This document shows positions 27,174 through 31,129 of a stretch of DNA of 34,760 bases, one piece after another; position 1 is the first letter of the stretch; each line of letters begins with the position of its first letter. The notes under the pieces were generated by a model. That model did not search any database. It was not told the DNA's origin and saw nothing but the letters and a program-made list of their open reading frames with translations. This stretch comes from Actinomycetota bacterium. GTDB lineage: Bacteria; Actinomycetota; Thermoleophilia; RBG-16-64-13. The stretch is from positions 1 through 34,760 of the forward strand of contig JAAYZX010000012.1 in the NCBI GenBank assembly GCA_012514635.1, written 5' to 3'. A program made the position numbers and the translations under genes.

Positions 27174-27410
27174 TTATAGCTCGTGATACCCGGCGGTCTC
27201 TACGCTGTTTCCCTGCAGAATGCCCACGATTCTCTCAAGATCCGTCCAGCTGAATCGGATGGCCAGTCCGCAATCGCTGGAGAGATGGCGCGGAGTTGGG
27301 ACCAGTTTAGTGGAAAGGTTTGCCTGACGCAGCACCTTGTCTGCTTTGATGGCGGCGGAAGTGGTGTGAAACACCACGACGCCGAGGCTGAAGGGTAGCG
27401 AAGGACTCAC
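27174..27410 (-). CDS. DUF3343 Se/S carrier-like small protein
   Basis: DUF3343 proteins (about 75-85 residues) are annotated in the family as putative selenium/sulfur carriers; direct biochemistry is limited. The 78-residue protein reads VVVFHTTSAAIKADKVLRQA, then LVPTPRHLSSDCGLAIRF with the conserved Cys-Gly of the 'P.PR..SS.CGLA.R' motif. Its GTG start overlaps the stop of the upstream cysteine desulfurase by four bases (GTGA), so the two are translated together. This pairing suggests the desulfurase hands sulfur or selenium to this protein's cysteine. That transfer is inference. Confidence 0.85.
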   Translation of the reverse strand: MSPSLPFSLGVVVFHTTSAAIKADKVLRQANLSTKLVPTPRHLSSDCGLAIRFSWTDLERIVGILQGNSVETAGYHEL

Positions 27411-28651
27411 AGTGGCTTCTCCGAAGCAGAGGGGAGGTGCTTCCCCACAGCATCCAGGCCGTTGGGGGGGTGGGGAGCGCAGGTGGCGATGTGATGGATG
27501 GCCTCGATAGTGCGGTCGACGTCGTCCGGAGAGGTGGAGTAGCCGAGAGAGAGGCGGACGGCACCATCGGGAAATGTGCCCAGCGTGCGGTGAGCGGCGG
27601 GAGCGCAGTGCAGACCCACTCGGGTGAGCACGCCGAATTCCTCGTCCAGTATCAGTCCTACTTCGTCCTGCGCTACGTTCTCAATGCGAATGGCCAGCAC
27701 CGCAGTCCTGAGAGAGGGGTCGAGCGGGCCATAGATTCGTACTCCGGGGATGGCGGCCAATGCCAGTTGGAGCCGGGCTGTGAGGTCCTGTTCTTCGGCT
27801 CGTACGCGCCGGACGGTCCGTTTGGTCAGGACATCGATGGCCGCCGCCAACCCGGCCAGGCCCACGCCGTTTGGCGTACCGGCCTCGAAGCGATCCGGCA
27901 GCATGTTGGGATGCTCTTCAAATTCGGATCGGCTCCCCGTTCCGCCGCGAACAAGAGGTTGCAATGTCTCAGGGTCGAACGAAGGTCCCAACACCAATCC
28001 ACCCGTACCCGGGGGTCCCTGCAACCCCTTGTGACCCGTGAAGGCCAGTAGATCTATGTCTGTCGCCGTGACATCGATGGGTAATACACCGGCGGTCTGG
28101 GCTGCGTCCACTACCGTGTAACTGCCGGCCGCCCGCGCTGCGGTGACGAGCAGTTCCAATGGCTGGATGGTTCCGCTGACGTTGCTGGCATGCTGAAAGC
28201 AGGCCACGCGGGCTCCTTGTGCCAGTTCATGTTGGAAGCGATCGACGTCGACGAAGCCGGCCGTATCGCAGGGAATCACCACTACCTCAACGCCACGACG
28301 TTCCAATTCTCTCAATGGTCGCATGATCGAGTTGTGCTCCATGGCCGTGGTCACCGCCCGGTCCCCGGGTTGCAGGAGGCCGAAGAGGGCTGTGTTAAGC
28401 GCGTGAGTGGCATTGAGGGTGAAGATCACGCGGAAAGGATCGTCTACGTTGAAGAGGGAGGCTACCGCTTCTCGTGCTTCCAGCACCACACGACCGGCGG
28501 CAATTGACAGCCGATGTCCCGATCGCCCTGGATTTCCGCCCGATTCGGCCAGGTATGCGGCCATGGCGGCGGCTACCTCCGGCGGTTTGGGCCAAGAGGT
28601 GGCCGCATTATCCAAGTAGATCAGATGCTTGTCCGTGTTCGCGGAAGACAA
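27407..28651 (-). CDS. cysteine desulfurase family protein (class V aminotransferase)
   Basis: These PLP enzymes remove sulfur (or selenium) from cysteine (or selenocysteine) as a persulfide. HLIYLDNAATSWPKPPEV at the N-terminus, TMEHNSIMRPL-like AMEHNSIMRP, the PLP-lysine region AFTGHKGLQGPPGTGGL, and the active-site cysteine in RVGLHCAPAAHRTLGT are all present. It matches the group of stand-alone desulfurases often seen with selenium or sulfur carrier genes rather than IscS. TTG 28651 has GGAGG eight bases upstream and is preferred over an ATG 24 codons earlier, which adds an unmatched leader. Length from TTG is 414 residues. It overlaps the DUF3343 gene. Confidence 0.9.
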   Translation of the reverse strand: MSSANTDKHLIYLDNAATSWPKPPEVAAAMAAYLAESGGNPGRSGHRLSIAAGRVVLEAREAVASLFNVDDPFRVIFTLNATHALNTALFGLLQPGDRAVTTAMEHNSIMRPLRELERRGVEVVVIPCDTAGFVDVDRFQHELAQGARVACFQHASNVSGTIQPLELLVTAARAAGSYTVVDAAQTAGVLPIDVTATDIDLLAFTGHKGLQGPPGTGGLVLGPSFDPETLQPLVRGGTGSRSEFEEHPNMLPDRFEAGTPNGVGLAGLAAAIDVLTKRTVRRVRAEEQDLTARLQLALAAIPGVRIYGPLDPSLRTAVLAIRIENVAQDEVGLILDEEFGVLTRVGLHCAPAAHRTLGTFPDGAVRLSLGYSTSPDDVDRTIEAIHHIATCAPHPPNGLDAVGKHLPSASEKPL

Positions 28652-28792
28652 TCTGAGAACCTCCGGTGTGGCTCTGTTTGGACTCGCCCTTCCGGTTCTT
28701 ATGTCGATCCATGCGCGGTACATTATCCTTGGAGGCGGCGTTGTCGACCAGTGTTCTTACCTCATCCAAAATCAAGCTCCATGGATGCCGGC

Positions 28793-29611
28793 TCAGCGCC
28801 GGAGGCGCCGAGCGGTGCGTGCGGCCTGTGCGCGCTCGATAGCGACCGTGTGGGCGCGTAATTCCACCGTGTCGTCCAAGGGCTCAAGATCAATTTCGCT
28901 CCCGTATCGGTGGCGCAGGGCGGCTGAGAGGAGTAGGTCCGCCAGGTGCGGATTCTTAGGAAGGACGGGACCGTGTAGGTAAGTACCGATGGCGTTGTTG
29001 ACGACGGCGCCTTCACCCGACCCGTCGCCTTTGTTACCGCACCCTACGATCACGGGTCCCAGTATAGAGGTTTCGTCCTGTAGGTAGGTCAAGCCACTAT
29101 GATTCTCAAAACCCACCAAGGTGTGGGGATAGCTCTCAAGGGGGGCGGCTGGATTTGCGTGTTGGGACGGGTACGCTGCAAAGAGTACGGCAGCATTCAC
29201 CACCACGTTACCCACGCACCGCTTGGTGCCGTCCACCGTGTAGCCGTCGAAGACCGAGATCCCGGGAAGCTCATCTCCATCCATAGTGCGGATGGAGCGT
29301 GTGAACAGCTGAAATCCTCCACTGACGGCGAGTGCCGGCAGACCTTTTGCTACCAGCCCGCGGATCTGCTCACCCAACTGGAACAGATGTGCGGCTATCG
29401 CTCGCTGCCCCTGATCCTGTCCCCCACCCAAGAACAGCAGGTCGGCTTGGGACAGATCAGGGTGGTCGCCGGGATCTACCTGTGTCACCTCCACACAGAA
29501 ATCGCGCCGGTGCATCCGGGAGGCCAAGACGGTCACGTTGCCCGCGTCTCCGTGCAGATTCATGTGTCGAGGATAGAGATGGAAGATGTGGATCCCGAGA
29601 GATGCGGTCAT
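28793..29611 (-). CDS. gatD: GatD-like glutamine amidotransferase subunit of lipid II isoglutaminyl synthase, nucleophile Cys replaced by Ser
   Basis: GatD releases ammonia from glutamine for MurT, which amidates D-glutamate of lipid II. The 272-residue protein shows FHLYPRHMNLHGDAGNV, FLGGGQDQGQR and the glutaminase elbow LPALAVSGGFQLF. VGFENHSGLTYL and GTYLHGPVLPKNP, with catalytic His213, follow. Where S. aureus GatD has its nucleophile Cys94 in a C-G-G-Y context, this protein has Ser97; the codon at 29321-29323 reads AGT on the minus strand. There is also an extra segment of about 25 residues before VGFENH. The ATG overlaps murT by four bases. Either the enzyme cannot use glutamine and MurT takes free ammonia, the base is wrong, or another residue substitutes. 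Confidence 0.9.
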   Translation of the reverse strand: MTASLGIHIFHLYPRHMNLHGDAGNVTVLASRMHRRDFCVEVTQVDPGDHPDLSQADLLFLGGGQDQGQRAIAAHLFQLGEQIRGLVAKGLPALAVSGGFQLFTRSIRTMDGDELPGISVFDGYTVDGTKRCVGNVVVNAAVLFAAYPSQHANPAAPLESYPHTLVGFENHSGLTYLQDETSILGPVIVGCGNKGDGSGEGAVVNNAIGTYLHGPVLPKNPHLADLLLSAALRHRYGSEIDLEPLDDTVELRAHTVAIERAQAARTARRLRR

Positions 29612-31014
29612 CGCCAGTACTCCTGCAGCACACCACGGCGGACAAGGCCGGCTCGCAGCTCCAGCATGGCTGTGTAGGTGGTCAGGATATTGAGGACGGC
29701 GGACTCTTCGACAAGCCGGACGGCTGAGTCTAGTGCCGTCAAGAGATCCGGTTCCACTATGACGCGTTCCATGGGCATTCCCGCATACTTGAGGCGCAGT
29801 GCCAGTTCGGCGGCACGAGTGCCACTCACGATCAGAATGTGAAACGATACGGCCAGAGGCGCAAAATCCACGTCCCAGATCCAGGAGACATCTGTGCCGT
29901 CGGCCGGGTTGTCGTTGAGACAGAGCAGAGCCGCTGGTCCTGCGTCCCACGCCGATACGTTGTCGATGACTTGGTTGAAGCCGGTTGGGTTCTTGACCAG
30001 GTGCATGATCCCGGTGCGACCATGGAGGACAAAGCGCTCCAAGCGACCAAAGGGAGGCTCCATGGTGGTCAGGGTATCTAGGGCTGACTTTGGATTCACG
30101 TCCAACACTTCTGTTGCCGCGACGGCAGCAAGCAGATTGTAGAGGTTGTAGAGACCGGAGAGGCCGGAGACAAGCGGCAGAATGCGGTCTCCGGCCATCA
30201 CGGAGGCTGATATCTCGGCGGATCCCAGTCTTACGTTTCGAGCCGTGATCCGAGGACGGGGTCGAGTAAACCCGCACCGGTCACACCGGAAGTGGCCCAA
30301 GTGCGAGAAGTAACGCCGCTCAAAGTGTAGAGGGGAGTGGCAAAGCGGGCAGCCGATAGTATCGATTGACGGTTCGGTCCGAGCATGCAGAGACGTGTCG
30401 TCCAGGCCATAGTAGATGACTCGTGCGCGATCTCGACCCAGTGCTGCCACCACGGGGTCGTCGGCGTTCAGCACCAGTGCGGCTTCGGGCGCCTGCTCTA
30501 TCCCGCGACGGATGAGGGAGGCGGTGGTGTTGATATCGCCAAAACGATCAAGCTGGTCCTGGAAGACGTTGGTGACAAGGATCAACCGGGGAGACACCTG
30601 TGCTGTGGCCTGCGGCATCGTTGCTTCGTCCACTTCAAAAAGGGCGATATCTTCCCTGGGGCGTGGGTTGACCAGACTGCTGCTTTGAACCAGGGCCGAC
30701 ACCAGGCCGCGGGTTAAATTGGACCCTCCACGGTTGCGTAGGACACGGAGCCCCTGGGCGGATAGGACGAGATCCATTGCCAGCGAAGTGGTTGTCTTGC
30801 CGTTGGTCCCTGTGACAATTACTGTGCCCTGGGGCAGCGTCTCCGTCAGTTCGGTAAGGATGCGTGGCGACAATCTTTCCGCAATAAGGCCCGGGAGGGC
30901 CTCCCCGCCCCCTCGATGCAGCCTGCGGGACCAGAAGGCCGCCTGTTTGGCGACCGCCAGTGCAGCCCATGTGCGCCCCGATATCACGCGGTCATTGTAC
31001 CTCTCGTCACTCAT
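29608..31014 (-). CDS. murT: MurT, lipid II isoglutaminyl synthase Mur-ligase subunit
   Basis: MurT is a cytosolic Mur ligase-like ATPase that amidates the alpha-carboxyl of D-Glu in lipid II, with GatD supplying ammonia. The P-loop VTGTNGKTTTSLAMD lies near residue 65. FEVDEATMPQATAQ and VTNVFQDQLDRFGDINTT follow, and a zinc ribbon is present (CPLCHSPLHFERRYF, then CDRCGF). The DUF1727 C-terminal domain has the catalytic-aspartate stretch SWIWDVDFAP. ATG 31014 gives 468 residues starting MSDERYNDRVISGRTW; the frame is open another 105 codons upstream but that part is antisense to the SDR gene. It is divergent from that gene by 115 bases. Confidence 0.95.
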   Translation of the reverse strand: MSDERYNDRVISGRTWAALAVAKQAAFWSRRLHRGGGEALPGLIAERLSPRILTELTETLPQGTVIVTGTNGKTTTSLAMDLVLSAQGLRVLRNRGGSNLTRGLVSALVQSSSLVNPRPREDIALFEVDEATMPQATAQVSPRLILVTNVFQDQLDRFGDINTTASLIRRGIEQAPEAALVLNADDPVVAALGRDRARVIYYGLDDTSLHARTEPSIDTIGCPLCHSPLHFERRYFSHLGHFRCDRCGFTRPRPRITARNVRLGSAEISASVMAGDRILPLVSGLSGLYNLYNLLAAVAATEVLDVNPKSALDTLTTMEPPFGRLERFVLHGRTGIMHLVKNPTGFNQVIDNVSAWDAGPAALLCLNDNPADGTDVSWIWDVDFAPLAVSFHILIVSGTRAAELALRLKYAGMPMERVIVEPDLLTALDSAVRLVEESAVLNILTTYTAMLELRAGLVRRGVLQEYWR

Positions 31015-31129
31015 GGGCGCAGATGGCGGGTGAAGAAGGGGCGATACAGGTATAGTCAGAAGTTGAAACAGACGGACTGCCGACGTAGGCGACACCGGTG
31101 GCCCGGCGACCGGGAAAAAGGAGGATAGC

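Follow-up and report, generated by a model that had tools for sequence, protein, structure and literature searches.

The question raised by this locus is whether a MurT/GatD pair, which amidates the peptidoglycan precursor lipid II, can remain in use after its glutaminase subunit has lost the catalytic cysteine. The gene concerned, gatD, is located at 28793..29611 on the minus strand of the window, that is, the whole stretch of 34,760 nucleotides that was analysed, and it encodes a GATase_3 (CobB/CobQ-like) domain protein of 272 residues. The assignment was based on a Pfam match (GATase_3, 104.5 bits), a PDB search in which a solved GatD structure was retrieved (6gs2, E=8.9e-41), and an AlphaFold2 model of the protein (pLDDT 88.6, pTM 0.90). 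The model matched S. aureus GatD (6h5e_A) with a Z score of 31.7, and the GatD proteins of S. aureus, S. pyogenes, and S. pneumoniae were all matched at Z 30-32, as against approximately 17.7 for the next family (HisH). The NCBIfam GatD models also matched the protein, with scores (172.1 and 149.6) that fall short of the curated cut-offs (450 and 400, respectively).

The ATG start codon of gatD overlaps the stop codon of murT, and the two genes have uninterrupted frames in conserved synteny with those of the nearest relative (genome G007); the sequence-only reading, which had described a GatD coupled to an intact murT, was correct in this respect. A gene of the class-V aminotransferase/cysteine desulfurase family adjoins gatD (27407..28723, minus strand; the order is the same in G007), and because its own catalytic cysteine (RVGLHC) is intact it served as an internal control. 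No second GatD was found by a search of the window genome (G000). One other GATase_3 match (L002) was rejected as GatD, being a weak match of the CobB/CobQ type below the cut-off.

In the nucleophile elbow, the codon AGT at 29321..29323 (minus strand) encodes Ser97, which corresponds to Cys94 of S. aureus GatD and Cys107 of S. pneumoniae GatD. The residue stands in the context LPALAVSGGFQLF (elbow AVSGGFQ) in the window and in LPALAVCGGYQLF, with the Cys codon TGC, in G007. A serine in place of the catalytic cysteine had been read from the sequence of this codon, and an alignment of GatD homologues from related genomes had been proposed as a check; when these were aligned, Cys was present at the nucleophile column in 60 of 60 homologues and the window GatD alone had Ser. 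When the elbow pattern was run against 399 genomes of the class it matched in 337, and among the approximately 155 matches listed there were 11 without Cys, none of which was a GatD. Serine-codon patterns (AGY and TCN) were also searched across 346 genomes of the phylum and no further Ser-GatD was found; the other Ser/Thr elbows from these two surveys were ruled out as GatD by profile. There is little doubt that the serine at codon 97 is genuine. Class GatD matches in five of the surveyed genomes (G052, G037, G045, G053, and G060; L006, L011, L020, L025, and L026) cross one stop codon, which is most likely the normal end of the gene.

The other catalytic motifs of GatD are kept, as had been noted previously. 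The catalytic His213 is present in GTYLHG (codon CAC, 28973..28975, minus strand; S. aureus His189), as are the glutamine-capturing Arg131 (CGG, 29219..29221, minus strand; S. aureus Arg128) and the GGG oxyanion glycines. Invariance was counted by leaving out each sequence in turn, and 30 GatD columns were fully invariant in the remaining ones; the window GatD departs from these at two positions, Y20H and C97S. His20 (CAC, 29552..29554, minus strand) replaces a Tyr found in 60 of 60 relatives, which forms the cap or plug over the nucleophile (Tyr17 in S. aureus, Tyr30 in S. pneumoniae). Tyr17 of S. aureus GatD touches both Cys94 and His189 and closes off the entrance (PMC5871853), and Tyr30 of S. 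pneumoniae GatD plugs the passage toward MurT; the Y30A mutant had lower activity in vitro and was tolerated in vivo (PMC6085368). Because of this placement of the tyrosine, Y20H and C97S are considered to be structural neighbours. In the helix after the nucleophile, Thr104 (ACA, 29300..29302, minus strand) is found in place of a Gly that is present in 59 of 60 sequences, and its codon is two base changes away from Gly.

Judged from the sequence, no clear replacement nucleophile is evident in GatD: the remaining cysteines (positions 40, 132, and 191) are absent from the GatD of G007, and none of them is located at the elbow. An extra stretch before VGFENH, which had been counted toward the divergence of the protein, does exist (about residues 141-162; 29126..29191, minus strand) and is the least confident section of the GatD model. 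It was ruled out as part of the Ser change, since comparable inserts are carried by the Cys-bearing relatives G007, L033, and L034. The insertion marks a clade and lends no support to a claim of glutaminase loss.

The partner gene, murT (29608..31014, minus strand), encodes a Mur ligase middle domain, a Cys4 Zn ribbon, and a MurT_C domain (Pfam, 108.3 bits). Residue numbers were counted from the start of the frame at 31029, such that the Met is residue 6. The GTNGKT motif, the acidic pair, the Zn cysteines, and Asp380, the third residue of the shared triad (GAT, 29890..29892, minus strand; S. aureus MurT Asp349), are all kept. The window sequence departs from 46 columns invariant in the other sequences at two positions, R157Q and E165D. 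Gln157 (CAG, 30559..30561, minus strand), the first residue of the channel loop, stands where all 43 relatives have Arg (Arg133 in S. aureus, Arg135 in S. pneumoniae), and Asp165 (GAT, 30535..30537, minus strand), the last residue of the same loop, replaces an invariant Glu (S. pneumoniae Glu143). The S. pneumoniae MurT numbering was derived from the offset given by Lys321-Asn322-Pro323 and was checked on Asp112-Glu113. In the S. pneumoniae complex, loop 135-143 of MurT is located at the GatD interface and is a possible ammonia conduit; a change of Glu143 to Ala had minor effects only, and Arg135 was outside the four loop residues tested (PMC6085368). Since R157Q and E165D correspond to the two ends of this loop, all four changes in GatD and MurT are placed on the route from glutaminase to ligase. 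Relative-rate counts for MurT indicated a faster window sequence for one of five outgroups. The view of Ser97 as an isolated residue had to be revised, as C97S forms part of a coordinated change with Y20H and with R157Q and E165D in MurT, and as CarA, HisH, and one further GATase encoded in this genome show parallel nucleophile losses.

These losses were identified by a genome search with PF00117 (class-I GATase), which returned four proteins, namely PyrG and three without the Cys. In CarA (L095; G000:C8:32587-33186, plus strand) the elbow reads FGIGLGHQ with Gly (GGT) in place of Cys (C285G), and the catalytic His, aligned with E. coli CarA His353, is replaced by Gln (H393Q). Both catalytic residues are retained in all relatives aligned for CarA; the Cys is kept in the orthologues from 11 relatives, one of which is G007, where the spacing to the mur cluster is similar, and a Cys codon is found in a CarA-type elbow in most genomes of the family. 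The gene that follows L095 is carboxylesterase-like and is not carB. In HisH (L096; G000:C10:20801-21205, minus strand) the elbow reads LGVGLGLQ with Gly (GGC) in place of Cys, PGVG is changed to AGDG, and the catalytic His is kept; orthologues with the Cys kept were found in two family genomes. The HisH gene shares a his cluster with hisD, hisB, and hisA; the place after hisA is taken by an MFS-like gene instead of hisF. HisH-like GVGLG matches in other genomes of the family were rejected because they had no match to HisH. The remaining protein is an orphan stand-alone class-I GATase (L097; G000:C110:2025-2501, plus strand), PRK07053-like with a match below the cut-off, in which the elbow reads LGIGLGAQ and the Cys is again replaced by Gly (GGT).

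The GMP synthetase of the same genome (L198:11016-11975, minus strand; G000:C68) is a 320-residue ATP-PPase domain protein without a glutaminase domain; it is immediately preceded by a stop codon and by a gene unrelated to it, and the PF00117 search of the genome gave no glutaminase domain of the GuaA type. The same search found no TrpG or PabA glutaminase, and GVCLGHQ elbows are present in many other family genomes. The nucleophile losses affect different genes and involve different replacement codons, and they are therefore treated as separate events.

Other catalytic sites in the genome are intact. PyrG keeps its Cys nucleophile, PurL (GATase_5; LGVCNGCQ and MPHAER) and PurF (HDECGVFG) are unchanged, and the catalytic cysteines of IMPDH (GSICTT), the desulfurase beside gatD, and GAPDH (SNASCTTN) are present. 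Together with the intact Zn ribbon of MurT, these sites ruled out a general loss of catalytic cysteines, and those of PyrG, PurL, and PurF also ruled out a genome-wide end of glutamine use. The nucleophile losses thus appear to be specific to some glutaminases. In a sample that is small, the enzymes with losses (GatD/MurT, CarA/CarB, and HisH/HisF) have separate glutaminase subunits, and those that keep the site (PyrG, PurL, and PurF) are fused. A glutamate dehydrogenase gene is present in the window genome; the approximately half of the genome covered by the reading showed no glutamine synthetase, ammonium transporter, CarB, or HisF. Literature searches found no precedent for a genome-wide loss of glutaminase nucleophiles, and a keyword search of a paper on nitrogen in Blattabacterium likewise returned none.

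Mur ligases of peptidoglycan synthesis are present in the window genome. MurT/GatD was found in only 2 of 18 genomes of the family, the window genome and G007, and the gene neighbourhood is the same in both. In a phylogenetic tree, the MurT/GatD proteins of these two genomes grouped with those of two uncultured bacteria, one of them labelled Patescibacteria (support 96/83), and the family pair was placed apart from the rest of the class (window 28793-31014; L004, L033, and L034). Given this grouping with uncultured, partly Patescibacteria-labelled genomes, the pair was likely acquired horizontally in this family.

The consequences of losing the nucleophile are known from published mutants. The C94S variant of S. 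aureus GatD folds into a stable protein that has no activity in the amidation of lipid II (PMC6113224). The C94G change abolishes amidation from glutamine and leaves amidation from ammonia at pH 8.5 as it was, a reaction for which GatD is still needed; the wild-type MurT/GatD showed no use of ammonia in vitro at pH 7.5 (PMC3266927). These two mutants and E. coli CarA C269S (PDB 1c30) resemble the window GatD in that the same residue is lost and the fold is kept, and both GatD mutants have lost the use of glutamine. Unlike the window GatD, they were engineered and are without the plug or channel-loop changes. The glutamine-dependent activity of the window GatD has very probably been lost.

A natural parallel is provided by human CPS1, which has Ser294 at this Cys position and uses ammonia (PMC4655335). 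Vertebrate CPS1 is like the window GatD in that a class-I GATase domain is retained with Ser at the nucleophile position and the nitrogen source is ammonia; it differs in its synthetase and substrate, in being one fused protein, and in being a single enzyme instead of several per genome. The MurT/GatD pairs of S. aureus and S. pneumoniae share with the window pair the gene pair and its order, the GATase_3 fold, the catalytic His, the glutamine-capturing Arg, the oxyanion glycines, the MurT ATP site, the Zn ribbon, and the triad Asp, whereas the window pair differs from them in the change of Cys to Ser, the change of the plug Tyr to His, and the alteration of both ends of the channel loop. As in pseudo-glutaminases of the CPS1 type, the GATase domain is retained and the nucleophile is gone in GatD, CarA, HisH, and the orphan GATase.

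The explanation preferred here, and considered somewhat probable, is that GatD is a pseudo-glutaminase kept for its structure and that MurT amidates lipid II from free ammonia. GatD has lost its thiol nucleophile and tyrosine plug and has retained its fold, its MurT interface, and its MurT partner; free ammonia would reach the MurT active site directly, GatD would serve as a required structural subunit of MurT, and the pair would most likely still amidate the D-Glu of lipid II. The organism would be expected to amidate its own wall and to live with sufficient free ammonia. A GatD without a nucleophile need not be useless, because the C94G complex supports ammonia-driven MurT (PMC3266927). As the wild-type pair does not use ammonia at pH 7.5, high internal ammonia or changes in the channel would be needed. 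The sequence-only reading had suggested that the pair is kept without glutaminase activity and depends on free ammonia, or that wall amidation has been lost or reassigned; the loss of glutaminase activity is well supported, and free ammonia is the best supported of these options.

GatD would also be one case of a wider shift that includes CarA, HisH, the orphan GATase, and a GMP synthetase without a glutaminase domain. Whether a set of amidotransferases (for wall amidation, carbamoyl phosphate, histidine, and GMP) has moved from glutamine to free ammonia is evenly balanced. The same even judgement applies to its fuller form, in which the nucleophile and domain losses were independent, the dead subunits are structural, and glutamine is used only by PyrG, PurL, and PurF. 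Within this proposal, strong sequence evidence argues for the loss of glutaminase activity, and ammonia may be what takes the place of glutamine. The intact glutaminase sites of PyrG, PurL, and PurF count against it, since they imply that glutamine is still a donor somewhere in the cell.

Because 16 of the 18 family genomes are without both genes, amidation is dispensable in the family and the pair may be on its way out. The glutaminase would then have been lost first from a decaying MurT/GatD and the operon would no longer amidate the wall, after the loss of both genes from most of the family; the changes at two invariant residues of MurT and the further damage around the CarA and HisH sites are consistent with this. 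However, neither frame is broken and their overlap is of the kind found in functional operons, the ATP-site, Zn, and triad residues of MurT are kept, the changes at invariant sites are clustered on the ammonia route and not scattered, and by relative-rate counts the window GatD is not significantly faster than that of G007. The pathways of CarA and HisH are seldom dispensable, and their genes are also retained. Decay, the main rival of the preferred explanation, was judged to be unlikely. Ammonia might also be supplied in trans by a docking glutaminase or deaminase, or GatD might be a regulator or scaffold without any transfer of ammonia; MurT physically needs GatD even with supplied ammonia (PMC3266927), and the MurT-facing parts of the window GatD are conserved. 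Either arrangement is improbable, as the genome has no second GATase_3 glutaminase of the GatD type and its other PF00117 proteins are only PyrG and the three without Cys.

Other proteins of the wider class-I GATase-like fold, those of the peptidase E type, have serine nucleophiles, and Ser97 could be a working nucleophile, aided by His20 and His213, with glutamine still hydrolysed. His213, Arg131, the oxyanion glycines, and Asp380 of MurT are all kept and the new His adjoins the nucleophile, but S. aureus C94S is inactive (PMC6113224) and in CarA, HisH, and the orphan GATase the Cys has given way to Gly, which leaves no side chain to act; a functional Ser97 is therefore highly doubtful. An assembly or sequencing error at codon 97 would need only one base, as AGT is one change from TGT, and the sequence is from a single draft genome in 129 contigs. 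Such an error is nevertheless very unlikely, almost to the point of being negligible, because Y20H and G104T are also changed and three other glutaminases are without the nucleophile, a four-gene pattern that would require many independent errors at catalytic codons in a genome with intact catalytic cysteines in IMPDH, the desulfurase, GAPDH, PyrG, PurL, and PurF.

Because most of the ammonia in the cytosol is protonated, its channelling from glutaminase to synthase is usually regarded as all but indispensable in bacteria. If the ammonia-driven reading is true, independent losses in several unrelated amidotransferases of one genome, with Cys in the nearest relatives, would be nature's own test of when a cell can do without channelling, and the genome would also bear on why a dead glutaminase subunit is retained. 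A natural GatD variant would help to separate the structural from the catalytic role of GatD. Pseudo-glutaminases like CPS1 are already known; the multi-enzyme pattern in a single genome merits follow-up. Beside the corresponding locus of G007, a DUF1295-like gene (L078:5038-5472) gave matches in two pieces in different frames and is possibly a frameshift or a pseudogene.
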